Source: a virus. Taken from it: a stretch of DNA of 25,656 nucleotides. Shown here piece after piece: positions 8,395-25,656 of the stretch. The stretch spans positions 1-25,656 of IMG/VR virus record IMGVR_UViG_3300025132_000263; one strand, written 5' to 3'. Position 1 is the first letter of the stretch, and each line of letters starts with the position of its first letter. The notes beneath the pieces were generated by a model. It saw only the letters and a program-made list of their open reading frames with translations. It did no database searches and was not told the DNA's origin. The position numbers and the translations under genes are program-made.

Positions 8395-10467
8395 TTATTC
8401 TAAAAATCCTTCATTCTTCATAGTCTTAGGCGCTCTTGCAACTAGACTATCATTTCTTTTAATTGTAAAACCTTCACTTCTAGCCTTTGTAGCAGTTATG
8501 ATTTTGTCAGTAGTTATATTATCAGGATAAACTACGAACCCCTCGTCACTAGCAGGCGCTTGAAAAATCCTACGTTTCCAGTAGTGATGGCAGTTTCCGC
8601 CTCCTTTGTAAAGCCAGCAACTATATGTTGCAGCTCCTCTAGGTCCCCATCCTGGATTTACAGGTATTGTTGACATTCTTAAAATATCCTCCTTCCTGTA
8701 AACTTTTTTTGTCGCCATCATAAGCTTGCAAAAGCTTCTAGTTTCTCCTTCTTGACTTAAAGAGTTGTTTCTAGTGTAAACATATCTAACTTTAAAAAAT
8801 TCATCCCCTGCCTTATTAAGACCATCCTGCTCACTTCTTACATTTGGATTAGCTCTTCCTGTTCTAACGAAATCAAATTTTTCACCTGCAACTTTATTTA
8901 ATTCTTTTTCAAAATCAAAGTCTTGATGTTCTCCATCTACTATTTCATCATCTATCATTTCCCATCCTTCAGGAATATCTTCACCATATTCTGCTATAAA
9001 TTTTTCTAATTCTGTTTTTTCAAATTTTTGTTTTTTACAATTACAATTTTGTAAATTAGTAATTTGTTCATGGTCTTCGCAAGGCATATAAACGTCTTTA
9101 CCATCTAAAGTATGTACGTGATACCCTTTGCATCCTAATCGTTCTGCTTCAGCTTCAGCTTCTTCTATTGTGTCATATAAAGGCAAATCTATTTTACCAT
9201 CTTTACCATCAGTAACCATGCTCCCAACTTTACTAAGCTTAACATCTTGCTCAACAGTATCTTCGTCACCTAAAGGCTCTAGTCCTAATTCGTCACGTAT
9301 TTCATCAGTTGTCATCACCTCTCTAATAGTCTTAGAGTCAAATTGTACTGTTATTGGTTTAAGTTGCACAAAATTAACAGGCATATCCATGTTGTTAATC
9401 TGAAATATTTTTCTTAGCTGTTTTACTATTTGGTCTTGAAATGGTTTAATTACAGTATTAAGATAAAAATTAGCAGCGTTTATAATTTCGTCTGTATTGC
9501 TTGAAAAACCATTAGCGGAGTCAATACCCATCAGAGTCTTAGATGTTACCCTGTGACCGCTTAAAATGTTGCTAGTAAGCAATTCTTGAAGTGCTATATA
9601 TTGCTTGTCAAGATCACTTGTACTAATAGGGGTTATCTCAGGAGTTCTTGTCTTATCATCTGAGAATGTAAGTACAAATTTTCCTGCATTAGTTTCAGAA
9701 CAGAATTTATCAGTAAGACTTTGCTCTATCTGCATTCTTTCTTCGTATGAAGGTACTCCATTTGCGAAGGAAATCAGAAAGCTCCCAGCAAAACCATTAG
9801 ATATATTGTTTAGATGAAACTCTGAAACTCTAGCGTCAATCAACGCCCAATTGTTACAAGATACATAATCAGGAGTGTAATACGAATTCATGTTAGGGCT
9901 GTAAAGACCTGAATACATTATTTGGTTAGCTGAAGTCCTATCGTTAGCATTAAAAGCAGGAACATAGTTAGGTTTGTTTTGTCTTGTGTTTGACCAATCA
10001 GATGAGATGTAATATCCAGGTGTTTTACCAAATTCGTCAGGTCTTGCGCATCTTAACTTAGAAACATCTAAATGATAAACCTCCGCAATCTGAGTTCTAT
10101 CTTTTGACCATACTATGTTTAAAGCAAATGCTCCTTGTAGCTTAAAGTCAAATGCTAATTTTTTTATTACTTCATGAAGACTCTCATTACCATTTGCTCT
10201 ATTAATAAAGTTTTGTAGCTTTACAGTAGCCTCTAAATCTCTATCGTCTTCGTCTTCTATTATAAGTGCTTCACCTGCTATCATCTCAGATGTTGCGTTT
10301 ATAATAGCTGCTGATATTGAGCTTGAGTAGTATAAATCAATTAAAAACTGTGGATATAAATTTCTCCAATTATCTGTACCGTATTCAATCCAATCTTTAC
10401 CTCGCGTCTCTTGTACGATTGGCGCTGTACTTGTTTCTAAATTAATATTTATGATATTGTCTTTCAT
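8395..10467 (-). CDS. Portal protein with Cys/His-rich C-terminal extension (690 aa)
   Basis: Residues 1-390 look like a portal: DNWRNLYPQFLIDLYYSSS near the start, AFDFKLQGAFALNIVW, a wing with FHLNNISNGFAGSFLISFAN, then KRFT-type SHRVTSKTLMG stretches and a long helix ending near the clip (IKPFQDQIVKQLRKIF). Portals form the dodecameric channel for DNA packaging. The remaining 300 residues are extra. They contain a DTIEEAEAEAERLGC-HVH-YMPCEDH module (about 435-465), an acidic linker, and a conserved domain from about 555 with FKVRYVYTRN, TRSFC, YRKEDILRMS and YKGGGNCHHYW near 620-630. The extension may be a fused minor head or zinc domain. The portal call is strong and the extension's role is unknown. 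Confidence 0.8.
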   Translation of the reverse strand: MKDNIININLETSTAPIVQETRGKDWIEYGTDNWRNLYPQFLIDLYYSSSISAAIINATSEMIAGEALIIEDEDDRDLEATVKLQNFINRANGNESLHEVIKKLAFDFKLQGAFALNIVWSKDRTQIAEVYHLDVSKLRCARPDEFGKTPGYYISSDWSNTRQNKPNYVPAFNANDRTSANQIMYSGLYSPNMNSYYTPDYVSCNNWALIDARVSEFHLNNISNGFAGSFLISFANGVPSYEERMQIEQSLTDKFCSETNAGKFVLTFSDDKTRTPEITPISTSDLDKQYIALQELLTSNILSGHRVTSKTLMGIDSANGFSSNTDEIINAANFYLNTVIKPFQDQIVKQLRKIFQINNMDMPVNFVQLKPITVQFDSKTIREVMTTDEIRDELGLEPLGDEDTVEQDVKLSKVGSMVTDGKDGKIDLPLYDTIEEAEAEAERLGCKGYHVHTLDGKDVYMPCEDHEQITNLQNCNCKKQKFEKTELEKFIAEYGEDIPEGWEMIDDEIVDGEHQDFDFEKELNKVAGEKFDFVRTGRANPNVRSEQDGLNKAGDEFFKVRYVYTRNNSLSQEGETRSFCKLMMATKKVYRKEDILRMSTIPVNPGWGPRGAATYSCWLYKGGGNCHHYWKRRIFQAPASDEGFVVYPDNITTDKIITATKARSEGFTIKRNDSLVARAPKTMKNEGFLE

Positions 10468-10481
10468 GTTTTTTTATTTAA

Positions 10482-11165
10482 TTATGGCATCAAACTTGCT
10501 AATCTAGCAGTAACATTTGCTGTTAATGCTGCACTACTTGAACTGTATATTTGTATCTCTGAAAGGTCTCCATTATACGCATTTCGATTTGTTTCTCTTA
10601 CACCTATGCAATCAATATCTGCTATTCCTGATAATGTTCCTGTCGTTGTTTGTGCTACCCCCTTCCAATACATTGTTATTGTATTGCTAACACGAGTGAA
10701 AACAACGTATGCTTCTTCAGCATAATTGCCGCTATCTTTAGGAATGTCAAGTGAAGCATTATTTATTTTTATTTTGACGTTGCTATTTGAAGAGAAGCGT
10801 ACAAATTCCCCACTTGTAGTGTTGTCTCCTAAAAGAGAACCTAGTGTTGTTAATTTTAGTTTTGCACCAATAGTAAAATCCCCTGTTAGTTCTATTTGTC
10901 CTGATGATTGAAGAAAATCAGAAGCAGCACTATTAAATGATAATACACCATCTGCATAAGCAGGTTGTTTAGGAAGACTGGATTGCTCCATATCTATATT
11001 ATTTGAAGAACTATCAGCCCAAGCACTTACATCAGAGCCATTTAAGGTAATACCCACACCTTTTTGATACCAAGCCTCTAAACTTGATTCATCAGTAGGA
11101 GACCATGCACTACTAGATGGGTAGTTTGATGAATTTAAACTTAAACCTAATTTTAATGATAACAT
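10482..11165 (-). CDS. LamG/concanavalin-like virion protein (227 aa)
   Basis: The sequence shows the LamG-like jelly-roll pattern: LEAWYQKGVGITLNGSDVSA with WADSSSNN, then LTGDFTIGAKLKL, a TITMYWKGV strand and the terminal YNGDLSEIQIYSSS signature seen in phage and marine adhesion proteins. These domains bind carbohydrate or decorate capsids. It lies just upstream of the portal gene and downstream of another small beta protein, so it is probably a surface-exposed virion component. Ligand specificity cannot be read. The very N terminus (MLSLKLGLSLNSS) may attach to another virion part. Confidence 0.7.
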   Translation of the reverse strand: MLSLKLGLSLNSSNYPSSSAWSPTDESSLEAWYQKGVGITLNGSDVSAWADSSSNNIDMEQSSLPKQPAYADGVLSFNSAASDFLQSSGQIELTGDFTIGAKLKLTTLGSLLGDNTTSGEFVRFSSNSNVKIKINNASLDIPKDSGNYAEEAYVVFTRVSNTITMYWKGVAQTTTGTLSGIADIDCIGVRETNRNAYNGDLSEIQIYSSSSAALTANVTARLASLMP

Positions 11166-15363: not shown

Positions 15364-17118
15364 TTAAATTGTTGCTCTACGTCTTATATTCGCAAGCTGG
15401 TTCTGCGAATCTGTCATTTCGTCTGTAACTACAAACGCTTTGACTGGTTCAGGCTCTACCCCTCCTGTTAGATCGAAAGCACCTGACATCATCTGTGGTG
15501 CAGGTGTTGTTGGTGCTGCTCCACCTCCTCCTCTACTTCCTCCTCCACCCCCTCCTCCTCCGCCTGGAACTGGAGTTGAAACGATAGATGCTACATTGGC
15601 TAAACCTGCTGCAATTGCTGCTCCTGCCGCTACTGCTCCAAGTGCAGGTCCTGCTGGTCCTATACCTGCTAAAGACTTATAAGCTGCTGTTGCAGATGCA
15701 TAAGTGTCCATAGTTGTTTGTGCAATAGCAAAGGCTTTTCCTGCTGCTGTTTCTTCACCTAATATAGTAGCCATATCTCCCGCAGCATTAGATGCAATAC
15801 CTACCTGTTGATCTGCTGTCATATCTGACCATTTGACTTGTTGCTTAGAAAACTTAGCTTCAGCTTCTAGTCTTTTTCTATCAAACTTTTTTCTTATTTC
15901 TGCTTTAACAGCTTCAGAATTTTCTAATAATTCTGCACTAGCTAATTCTTTTTCTTCTTGTATTCTTAGCTCTTCCATAGCCCTTTTTTCAAGGTCTGTA
16001 ATTAAAGCTAATGTATTTTCTTGTTGTAAAGCTAATAATATTGCTGCTTCACTTTCTGCTTTTGCAATTTTAGCATCTTCTTCGTCTTGTTTTTCTTTTG
16101 CTCGTGCTTTTTGTTCTGCTGCTATTTCACGATCTAACGCATTAACCTCAGTAACTACTCGCCTTCGCATTTTAACAGAAGCAGTCTCTTTTTCTATAAT
16201 CTCAGCTTTTAATCTTGCTAAGTCTTGTTCATCTTGTGCAGAATTTTCACTAAGCGCCATCTCTGCTTCCTTAATACGCATTCTTTCTCTTGCTAAAGCT
16301 ATTTCTTTTTCTGTTGTTTCTGCTTCGAGTTCTAGTGCTTTCTTTAGATTATCTAATCTTTCTTGTGCTGACTTTGTTTCATCTTCTGCAACTAACCTAG
16401 CTTTTTCTATTTCTTGTCTAGTAGCCGCTTTTTGAATCATAAAAGCATTATCTGCATCTCTGAGTTGTTGAGTTCTTTTGGTTAAGGCTGCCATTGCTGC
16501 TGCTTCTCTAGCCATTTCAGCGCCCATTTCCTTAATACTATCTACAAACTCTTTTCTTTGTTCAGCATCTAATCCTGTTGACGTTTGTAATAAAGCATCT
16601 CCAAACGCCTTAGCACCTTCAGCAGCACCCTCAAAGTCTAATGTAAATACTGATTTAATAACATCACCCAAAGCACCAAAACCTTTAATAAGACCATCTA
16701 GTCTATTTACAAGTTGATTTTGTATAATTTCATATAATTGTTCAACCGCTTTTTGTGGATTTTCAAAAGCTGCAACCATTGTTTCTCCTAGACTTGAAAA
16801 AGCATCTGTTATTGCATCAACTATTGCACCTAATGCAGACATAGCTTGTGCCAACTTATCTGCTCCTCTTTTTGTATTAGTAAAATAAGACACTAAAGCA
16901 GTTACAGCAATTAACAAAGCCCCAATACCAGTACTCATTATTCCTGCTTTTACAGTTGCAAACATAGTCTTTGCAGTTTTACCAACTGATACAAATCCTG
17001 CTTTTACAGAATTTAAAGATACGCCCATTATTTTAAACTCACTAGCTAGTCCTGCTGCATCTTTACTTACTTCTCCTACATTTGATTTTACTTCTAATTC
17101 TATTGTTTCTTTTGCCAT
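15364..17118 (-). CDS. Tail length tape measure-like protein (584 aa)
   Basis: The protein is long and helical. A hydrophobic segment (STGIGALLIAVTALVSYF) is at about residues 62-80. Long coiled coils run through the centre (EKARLVAEDETKSAQERLDN and many similar Glu/Lys helices), with a second hydrophobic stretch (LGAVAAGAAIAAGLANVAS). A glycine-rich segment of nine Gly, Ser-Arg and more Gly follows near 520-535. The C terminus, FVVTDEMTDSQNQLANIRRR, is typical of Bacteroidetes phage tail proteins. At about 0.15 nm per residue this would measure a tail near 85-90 nm, an inference from known tape measures. It is in the tail cluster after the fibre-like gene. Confidence 0.75.
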   Translation of the reverse strand: MAKETIELEVKSNVGEVSKDAAGLASEFKIMGVSLNSVKAGFVSVGKTAKTMFATVKAGIMSTGIGALLIAVTALVSYFTNTKRGADKLAQAMSALGAIVDAITDAFSSLGETMVAAFENPQKAVEQLYEIIQNQLVNRLDGLIKGFGALGDVIKSVFTLDFEGAAEGAKAFGDALLQTSTGLDAEQRKEFVDSIKEMGAEMAREAAAMAALTKRTQQLRDADNAFMIQKAATRQEIEKARLVAEDETKSAQERLDNLKKALELEAETTEKEIALARERMRIKEAEMALSENSAQDEQDLARLKAEIIEKETASVKMRRRVVTEVNALDREIAAEQKARAKEKQDEEDAKIAKAESEAAILLALQQENTLALITDLEKRAMEELRIQEEKELASAELLENSEAVKAEIRKKFDRKRLEAEAKFSKQQVKWSDMTADQQVGIASNAAGDMATILGEETAAGKAFAIAQTTMDTYASATAAYKSLAGIGPAGPALGAVAAGAAIAAGLANVASIVSTPVPGGGGGGGGGSRGGGGAAPTTPAPQMMSGAFDLTGGVEPEPVKAFVVTDEMTDSQNQLANIRRRATI

Positions 17119-23999: not shown

Positions 24000-24085
24000 A
24001 ATCTTATTTTTATTGTTGGTGGTATTATCTTTATTTCTACTTTACCTATCTTTATCGTATTTAATCGTTTTAAGTATTCAATCAT
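23996..24085 (-). CDS. Micro-ORF (29 aa) between tail genes
   Basis: The 85-base gap between the tail terminator gene and the Trp/Gly module gene is filled by a 29-codon frame. The start overlaps the upstream stop as TAATG (24087-24083) and the stop overlaps the downstream start as ATGA (23999-23996). It begins MIEYLKRLNTIKIGKVEIKI and ends with a Pro-Pro-Thr-Ile-Lys-Ile basic tail. Exact coupling at both ends supports expression. No domain is recognisable, and it might only carry ribosomes across the gap. Confidence 0.45.
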   Translation of the reverse strand: MIEYLKRLNTIKIGKVEIKIIPPTIKIRL

Positions 24086-24633
24086 TAGTATCCTGCTCCT
24101 CTTGGGTTAACTGGTATGTCACATGTGCTGAAGTCATTTATTACTTGTATTCCAATTGTAAAAGTCCAACCACAAAGTAAGTTGTCAAACCTTTCTTGGA
24201 ATGGCTCAATATTAAATTGATCTTCAGTAAAATAAATTGGTTCATTAATATCATTGATTCCGTTTATTGATTGAGCTACACTATGTCGCAACATACCTAT
24301 AAAATCAGTACATATTGCTAATGTTTGATTCCACACTTCTTGTTCGTTATTTTTAGGATTAACTAATTTAGTTAATAATTTATGTTGCTCTGTTTGCCAA
24401 TCGTCTTTTTCACTTACTAAGTCAGCAACAAATATTTGGAAATTATATGTTAGTACAGAATCTCCCGTATCTACTGATGTAGGATTTATATGAAGCAAAG
24501 GCATTTTCTCCATTTTTTCTAAGTTTATATCAAATATATCACCTACTGAAACAGTTGATATTTGATGATGATATTCGCCTAGACGACACAATGTATTAAT
24601 AACATTATTATAACTCTTATTGTTTATTGGCAT
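24085..24633 (-). CDS. Tail terminator / tail completion protein-like (182 aa)
   Basis: A helix-strand protein beginning MPINNKSYNNVINTLCRLGE, with SVGDIFDINLEKMEKMPLLH as the next strand. Then come TYNFQIFVADLVSEKDDW, WNQTLAICTDFIGMLRHSVA and a beta-type C terminus, LCGWTFTIGIQVINDFSTCD. This layout is that of tail terminator proteins, which cap the growing tail tube. It directly follows the tail assembly chaperone frameshift region and overlaps its -1 frame by 17 bases, a usual gene order. Confidence 0.65.
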   Translation of the reverse strand: MPINNKSYNNVINTLCRLGEYHHQISTVSVGDIFDINLEKMEKMPLLHINPTSVDTGDSVLTYNFQIFVADLVSEKDDWQTEQHKLLTKLVNPKNNEQEVWNQTLAICTDFIGMLRHSVAQSINGINDINEPIYFTEDQFNIEPFQERFDNLLCGWTFTIGIQVINDFSTCDIPVNPRGAGY

Positions 24634-25398
24634 GTTTAACTCTATTTTGTGATTCTAAATCTGTTTCATAACTTAACCATGTAAATGCTTCTAATAAGTT
24701 TAACTTAGTTATTGCATCTAATTTTGATATATCGGCATTGCACAATCTATACATTACTCCAAAGTATCCCCATTTTTCTGCAAAAGATTCTGTTGCGATT
24801 GCTCTATCGTTTCCCTCAGCAGTTGAGTCGAATATGATTCCAAAATCAGATATAATATTTTTACGAAATGATAAAAAAAAACCAGCGCACTTTGCACTTG
24901 CTCTGCTACCATTTTTTTCATTGTATCTGCCCTTATACTTATATTACCATCATAGGCTTCAATAGTATAAACACCACTATCTGTCTCTTCTACAATTGGT
25001 CTGTATAAAATACTCATTATCTCAGGCAATCTTTTCTCCATTCCTTCTTTTATATAAGTCTCTAAATCTGACCATTCTCCAAGAGTTATGGAAGAAAGAT
25101 CAGGATGGAAACCATATCTTTTTCCTTTTATTTCAATTATTCTTTTTAAGGCGCTATCTTGCTTCTGCTGCATCTCAGCAAGTTTACCCATAATTACAGC
25201 AACATCTTTTAATTCTAATTGCTCTACTAACTTCTTTGGAATGTTAGACAAAGCAACTATTGTTTGGTGAGCTTCTTTGCTTTTTGTTCCATTTCTAAAG
25301 TCAACTAACTTTAACCACTTCTCTAGCGTTACATCTGACCAACTGCTAATTAACTTAAACTCTTTGTTCTTGCCTTCTTTTTTAATTTTAACCTTCAT
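24617..25398 (-). CDS. Tail assembly chaperone, -1 frameshifted long product (260 aa)
   Basis: At 24881-24873 the minus strand has nine T in the context GTT TTT TTT TAT, which includes a perfect U UUU UUU slippery heptamer. After a one-base slip back at codon TTT (24876-24874) the -1 frame stays open for 85 more codons to TAA 24619-24617. The extension starts LSFRKNIISDFGIIFDS and contains FAEKWGYFGVMYRL, a W-G motif typical of the second half of tail assembly chaperones, and then ITKLNLLEAFTWLSYE. Without it, 24634-24753 would be an odd gap in a compact region. This is the gpG/gpGT arrangement. A sequencing indel in the T run is the alternative. Confidence 0.65.
24754..25398 (-). CDS. Tail assembly chaperone, short 0-frame product (214 aa)
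   Basis: The zero frame from the ATG at 25398 ends at a stop at 24756-24754. The N-terminal 150 residues contain KLISSWSDVTLEKWLKLVDF, EAHQTIVALSNIPKKL and KRYGFHPDLSSITLGEWSDL, a pattern typical of tail assembly chaperones in Bacteroidetes phages. It continues to AEQVQSALVFFYHFVKILYL and a charged helix with QNLLQKNGDTLE. A GTG at 25401 is also in frame but the ATG is preferred. This corresponds to the gpG-like short form, abundant relative to the frameshifted long form described separately. Tail chaperones bind tape measure protein and help the tube polymerise. Confidence 0.7.
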   Translation of the reverse strand: MKVKIKKEGKNKEFKLISSWSDVTLEKWLKLVDFRNGTKSKEAHQTIVALSNIPKKLVEQLELKDVAVIMGKLAEMQQKQDSALKRIIEIKGKRYGFHPDLSSITLGEWSDLETYIKEGMEKRLPEIMSILYRPIVEETDSGVYTIEAYDGNISIRADTMKKMVAEQVQSALVFFYHFVKILYLILESYSTQLLRETIEQSQQNLLQKNGDTLE

Positions 25399-25416
25399 CA
25401 CTATATAATAGAAAAA
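25395..25416 (-). promoter_or_regulatory. Shared 22-base leader, copy 2
   Basis: Identical to 12143-12164. The minus strand reads TTTTTCTATTATATAGTG immediately before the chaperone ATG. Both copies sit at the start of a likely transcription unit of structural genes. As with copy 1, promoter and translation-initiation roles cannot be separated from sequence alone. Confidence 0.5.
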
Positions 25417-25460: not shown

Positions 25461-25562
25461 TATATTTGCCGTTAGTTTGTATTCATTTTTACTTTTGAAG
25501 GGGAGTAGAACATTCTATTTTTTTTAGTTATTATATTTTCTTTCTGACTACTCCCCTTTTTT
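25461..25562 (+). ncRNA. Possible plus-strand small RNA with its own promoter and hairpin end
   Basis: On the plus strand TATATTTG (25461-25468) is an exact TAnnTTTG box, with a TTG only 15 bases upstream, shorter than usual. About 90 bases further the sequence forms an 11-base-pair stem, AAGGGGAGTAG (25498-25508) with CTACTCCCCTT (25548-25558), around a 39-base loop, followed by a run of T to 25562. Read on the minus strand there is no T run. This may be a small antisense RNA or the hairpin may just follow the terminase gene. The long loop is atypical for a terminator. Confidence 0.35.
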
Positions 25563-25656
25563 ACTGCACAAAATATTTACCTGCATTCGGATTGTCTAAA
25601 TGATATATAACGTTATATCTTATTCCATCAATAGCATGATTCCAATTATCTATATA
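25561..25656 (-). CDS. Large terminase subunit, partial (C-terminal 31 residues)
   Basis: The frame from the right edge to TAA at 25563-25561 reads YIDNWNHAIDGIRYNVIYHL and ends with PNAGKYFVQ. The N-H-A-I-D-G-I-R-Y motif is the typical end of the terminase nuclease domain, where an Asp of the RNase H-like active site lies (N-x-A-I-D-A-x-R-Y in relatives). The enzyme packages phage DNA into procapsids using its ATPase and nuclease. Only the end is visible, so this is a confident family call on a short fragment. It is followed by a hairpin-containing gap and the chaperone gene. Confidence 0.7.
   Translation of the reverse strand, partial: YIDNWNHAIDGIRYNVIYHLDNPNAGKYFVQ

Follow-up and report, generated by a model that had tools for sequence, protein, structure and literature searches.

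Recoding in the genes for tail assembly chaperones is the textbook case of ribosomal frameshifting, and to our knowledge all of the tail chaperones that have been characterised use a ribosomal shift to make their longer product. In phage lambda, as far as the work of Xu, Hendrix and Duda (2004) is related in PMC3711429 and PMC5009743, a single gene yields a short product, gpG, and a longer -1 fusion, gpGT; the gene lies upstream of tail genes and adjacent to the tape measure gene, the shift takes place on G_GGA_AAG, and the stop of the extension falls at or within the next gene.

Recoding through the RNA polymerase is likewise already known, from runs of nine in bacterial and IS genes. The bacterial enzyme slips with high efficiency on nine A or T (reviewed in PMC5009743), and the E. 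coli polymerase favours poly(T) (PMC6260861). Thermus dnaX and Shigella mxiE and spa13 each carry a coding-strand run of nine with an open second frame, and give two products (PMC5009743). In a Roseiflexus IS, to the extent that the findings of Penno (2015) are described in PMC5009743, polymerase slippage is enabled by a terminator-like stem-loop of the nascent RNA that abuts the slip motif on its 5' side; the motif there is T5C5 and the outcome is a one-base deletion. For phage tail genes, no account of polymerase slippage turned up in the open-access literature, to which the search was confined, subscription papers lying outside it.

The locus described here combines features of these systems. 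It lies in a viral record of 25,656 bases, classed by IMG/VR (the whole stretch is called the window below), with its late genes on the minus strand. Like lambda G/GT, it is a siphophage gene upstream of the tail genes with a predicted short product and a longer -1 fusion, and its extension ends inside the next gene. Unlike lambda, it has a run of nine T in place of G_GGA_AAG, the run is never shorter than nine and has a terminator-like hairpin 5' of it, the gene stands after the terminase and is separated from the tape measure gene by several genes (about 7.6 kb), and its sequence matches none of the known chaperone families with confidence. The coding-strand run of nine and the open second frame are shared with dnaX, mxiE and spa13, from which the locus differs in having an extension that is conserved over very divergent phages. 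With the Roseiflexus IS, as that element is described, it shares a putative stem-loop of the nascent RNA immediately 5' to the slip motif; here, however, the motif is T9, a one-base insertion would be needed, and the hairpin is limited to the window's clade. Direct homologues with the same T9 and -1 extension are gp38/gp39 of the cultured Nonlabens phages P12024S and P12024L, which differ in having about 26% identity and in being annotated as two hypothetical proteins.

The recoded gene and its two frames

The features of the locus are collected in Table 1. The zero-frame gene is taken to start at the ATG at 25398, a GTG at 25401 being also possible. On the coding strand the slip region reads ...GCG CTG GTT TTT TTT TAT CAT TTC..., with a run of exactly nine T (A9 on the plus strand) and an in-phase heptamer T_TTT_TTT at 24880-24874. 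The -1 extension reuses the last T of the second TTT, and its landmarks are FR at codons 3-4, W at codon 35 and WLSYETDL at codons 66-73; it also contains EKWGYFGVMY. Between the zero-frame stop at 24754 and the next gene, which has its ATG at 24633, there is a gap of 120 bases (24634-24753), and the extension stop (24617-24619) falls within that next gene, giving an overlap of 17 bases. A sequence-only reading had placed the T9 run, the 85-codon -1 frame, the EKWGYFGVMY motif, the gap and the overlap correctly throughout, and its U UUU UUU is indeed in phase in GTT TTT TTT TAT. The fusion peptide, VFFLSFR, is the same for a ribosomal -1 shift and for one inserted U, so that the protein sequence cannot decide between polymerase and ribosome.

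Table 1. Features of the recoded locus, in positions of the window
Feature	Position	Strand	Basis or remark
Zero-frame gene, short product of 214 aa	24754..25398	-	ORF and homologues; putative tail assembly chaperone, G-like part
T9 slip run (GTT TTT TTT T)	24873..24881	-	T9 or T10 in 288/288 unique homology-found sites
-1 extension, 85 codons plus stop; putative C-terminal (T-like) domain of the long product	24617..24874	-	conserved in P12024S
Zero-frame tail past the slip point, 39 aa plus stop	24754..24873	-	overlaps the -1 extension; evidently under selection
Terminator-like hairpin AGUGC-AAAGU-GCGCU	24884..24898	-	2 nt separate its 3' arm from the T run
Next gene, first 17 bases shared with the end of the extension	24085..24633	-	neighbour conserved in relatives
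C-terminal end of upstream gene, probably large terminase	25561..25656	-	TerL occupies this position in relatives and in P12024S
Tape measure protein gene	15364..17118	-	PHROG 1538, 3336 and 9483 tape measure, E down to 4e-17

Two further elements lie in or near these frames. The intergenic stretch that separates the terminase end from the recoded gene contains, at 25498-25561 on the minus strand, an inverted repeat, GGGGAGTAG ... CTACTCCCC, whose loop is long and A/T-rich; the repeat is possibly a terminator or a promoter or packaging element. In the window's clade, extension codons 61-78 (~24641-24694) show low synonymous variation (AGT in 155/157, TTA in 151/155, ACA in 156/158), and this stretch, just upstream of the next gene's start, is perhaps that gene's initiation region.

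Conservation of the run and of both frames

Homologues of the zero-frame gene occur in hundreds of viral contigs, in P12024S (P12024S_38) and in PHROG 32199. Relatives were gathered by protein homology, the T run not being used as a query, which yielded 402 loci with 288 distinct sequences around the site; the main run-length counts use these homology-found loci only. The run is T9 in 280 of the 288 and T10 in the other 8, and no run of 7, 8 or 11 T occurs. The extension is offset by -1 at every site, the eight T10 sites included, and in no relative does it continue in the same frame. At least nine T are kept in three differently placed layouts, i.e. with the run beginning at the second base of a V, L or I codon (272 sites), with the run shifted 2 nt downstream by substitutions and R replacing V (8 sites), and in the T10 forms (8 sites). 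Searching with a DNA pattern for seven or more T added 71 further-spread homologues, all exactly T9, a count that is biased towards runs ending at a fixed spacing, together with nine unrelated chance matches of 7-8 T. Among 1,046 ORFs (822 kb) of these phages, all sense-strand runs of at least nine T are inside the recoded gene. At 26% identity, P12024S and P12024L keep C-T9-A and the same FFLSFR extension; RefSeq lists gp38 and gp39 of P12024S as separate hypothetical proteins, and together (NC_018271, 23136-23830) they make up the recoded gene, one half each. These comparisons of sequence confirm a recoding at the T9 run that is real and conserved, with a conserved extension, and with it the programmed entry into the -1 frame that the sequence-only reading had put forward; the outcomes named there as refuting it did not turn up.

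A distant structural homologue of 191 aa (BFVD E 1e-3) lies at 10047-10927 on the minus strand of Flavobacterium phage 6H (L249); its corresponding position carries just GTTTTTTC, and a frame resembling the extension begins after a -1 frame stop. Two phage contigs with the recoded gene (L083 and L084) have been placed in MAGs with the labels Euryarchaeota and Pseudooceanicola, labels that look like binning contamination rather than hosts.

The region past the run appears to be read in both frames. The zero-frame tail is open for at least 24 codons in 49/49 representatives, whereas randomising the codons beneath the -1 protein would leave it so in 5.6, a contrast whose probability is overstated by the relatedness of the representatives. 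Rare -1 codons (GCC, ATC, GTC) are favoured in the overlap where zero-frame residues are thereby kept. A BLOSUM conservation test of the tail gave z = 18; since relatedness inflates it and a control stretch near the site gave z = 15, the open-frame count is relied on instead. The count supports selection on the zero-frame tail of the short form and hence dual coding of the overlap, as had been suspected from the two protein-like frames.

Of 50 sequences, 48 lack any ATG in the -1 frame over the stretch that reaches from its preceding stop to extension codon 30, and the window has no GTG or TTG start there either. Conservation of the extension begins at the junction itself, where F3 and R4 are invariant, and this FR motif together with the lack of an ATG of its own indicates that recoding is needed. 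It is thus very unlikely that the extension is encoded independently and initiated within the overlap, as the annotation of P12024S has it, where RefSeq keeps gp39 apart from gp38: the conserved residues lie upstream of the gp39 start, and an independent start is rejected on these grounds. Homopolymers are error-prone, and for any such run one might think of an indel from sequencing or assembly, or of a pseudogene left by a recent frameshift; here the chance is negligible and the comparative data rule both out, since an error cannot give the same length and frame at 280 of 288 unique sites and in separately sequenced cultured phages, and since both frames are under selection. Phase variation by replication slippage, in which the DNA run length would toggle the long form on and off, has in its favour a homopolymeric tract within a gene, but the length is invariant apart from T10 in a few lineages, which keep the extension at -1, there being no tract of 7, 8 or 11 T, and this reading is rejected as highly improbable.

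Slippage by RNA polymerase or by the ribosome

We infer that the polymerase rather than the ribosome makes the change of frame, that a ratio of two products follows and that the products serve the tail. RNA polymerase slippage on T9 is, on a somewhat better than even judgement, the main route to the long form, and it is favoured by the minimum of nine, by the absence of C at a doubly silent position and by the 5' hairpin. Most messages would carry U9 and give the short form, i.e. 175 aa to the slip point plus the selected tail (here 39 aa). On the T9 template the polymerase would at times slip and add one U, and in the resulting U10 message the ribosome would read GUU UUU UUU UUA UCA without shifting. 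A minority of messages would thus be translated in the -1 frame beyond VFF, yielding the long product with its 85-aa extra domain (LSFR...WLSYETDL...). In the window's clade the nascent RNA hairpin just behind the run may promote the slip, as at intrinsic terminators. That the product ratio is set at transcription in this way, with an invariant T9 slip, a clade hairpin helping and the ribosome never shifting, we regard as an even proposition.

The hairpin is the sole terminator-like site in the region by a consensus scan. In the window's clade the consensus pairing is AGUGC/GCRYU, and the codons before the run depart from overall usage (GTG in 41/49 against 9%, CTG in 26/48 against 4%, GTT in 45/45 against 37%). 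The hairpin is 3.6 kcal/mol more stable than under synonymous randomisation, and a position scan makes it the strongest point of the gene, most other segments being within about 1 kcal/mol of their codon-randomised versions. Judged by codon choice and calculated stability, it is under selection in this clade. In the sister clade (34 representatives) it is not selected, with an excess of about 0; the T10 sites L151 and L203 lack it, and in P12024 it is weak. The hairpin as a general feature is therefore rejected in favour of a clade-specific one. An Rfam search gave no match.

At the third base of the second Phe codon a T-to-C change is silent in either frame (Phe TTT/TTC; Leu TTR/CTR) and leaves U_UUU_UUC, of the H_HH.U_UU.Y class that is shifty in E. 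coli (PMC4066793). C is found at this base in 0/78 T9 representatives against an expected 7.2% (P about 0.003, an optimistic value as the sequences are related), in an argument that takes its ribosome data from E. coli and applies them to a different host phylum. TTC is seen at the second Phe codon in L151 and L203, where T10 has arisen by leftward extension. A further point for the polymerase is that long A runs are scarce elsewhere in these phages: in the coding strands of the other genes of the window's clade, A8, A9 and A10 occur at 0.69, 0.16 and 0.26 of the codon-randomised expectation, so that avoidance of A runs of nine or more has a sharp threshold at nine, while the depletion of T9 in other genes is weak (0 seen, about 4 expected, with ORFs having at least nine T removed).

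A classical ribosomal -1 frameshift on U_UUU_UUU, in which the P- and A-site tRNA-Phe slip back by one base, is a serious possibility that we hold to be the less probable. The outer Ts of the run can also be explained by conserved hydrophobic residues (V/L/I first, L/F last), so that nine may equal a heptamer plus the protein sequence, and the heptamer is in the correct phase in every homologue and in all three layouts. It is shift-prone in E. coli even without a stimulator (PMC4066793), and genes of this class use the ribosome in lambda and many phages (PMC5009743), although the same review has U_UUU_UUU as much less shift-prone than A_AAA_AAG. None of the 288 sites uses any other heptamer, which counts against a ribosomal shift, as does the absence from T9 sites of the equally legal, doubly silent U_UUU_UUC. 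The structures that might stimulate a shift point the same way: no conserved or enriched fold was found 5-10 nt downstream of the heptamer in a scan that covered folds other than pseudoknots, a weaker peak starting about 33 nt on, and the conserved hairpin, 2 nt upstream and within the ribosome footprint, cannot stimulate a backward slip. Joint use of the run by polymerase and ribosome, both feeding the long form, is improbable; T9 satisfies the published needs of each and the product peptide would be identical, but one mechanism suffices. Of the frameshift claimed in the sequence-only reading, the recoding into the -1 frame has thus stood, and the ribosome is one candidate agent, polymerase slippage fitting at least equally well.

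Function of the two products

The name tail assembly chaperone rests on the two-product architecture of the gene and on its siphophage context, and the gene probably works in the manner of G/GT. As in that pair, a short zero-frame product is accompanied by a conserved -1 extension, and the tape measure gene marks a long-tailed phage. If the parallel with lambda gpG/gpGT holds, the tape measure protein would be coated by the short form, and the scarce long form would serve to bring in the tail tube protein. The recoded gene follows the terminase gene in the window, in the relatives and in P12024S and does not lie beside the tape measure gene, and the family matches are weak: PF10109 Phage_TAC_7 in 5/24 members (best E 0.012) and PHROG 166 'tail protein' (best E 0.0002-0.001), with a competing weak match to a terminase-small-subunit PHROG (E 1.2e-5). 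A BFVD search with the N part gave unnamed homologues and a named chaperone at just E 0.3, and with the extension nothing firm; AlphaFold models of the two parts are of low confidence (pLDDT 65 and 63), and a PDB search gave no match. Architecture and context make the chaperone role proposed at the outset likely, and the gene is taken as a probable rather than a proven member.

The long forms are missing from annotation, as with gp38/gp39 of P12024, and can be recovered with a simple regular expression together with homology; the cultured P12024S and P12024L make the question of mechanism testable. Hundreds of environmental phages, marine and other, the cultured Nonlabens phages included, appear to reach the same two products by way of a nine-T tract whose length appears to be fixed by selection. 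If it is the RNA polymerase that slips, homopolymer tracts in phages should not be 'corrected' or dismissed as errors, the control of the ratio of a virion assembly factor would lie in transcription, and these phages would have found a second, independent solution to the ratio problem of lambda G/GT.
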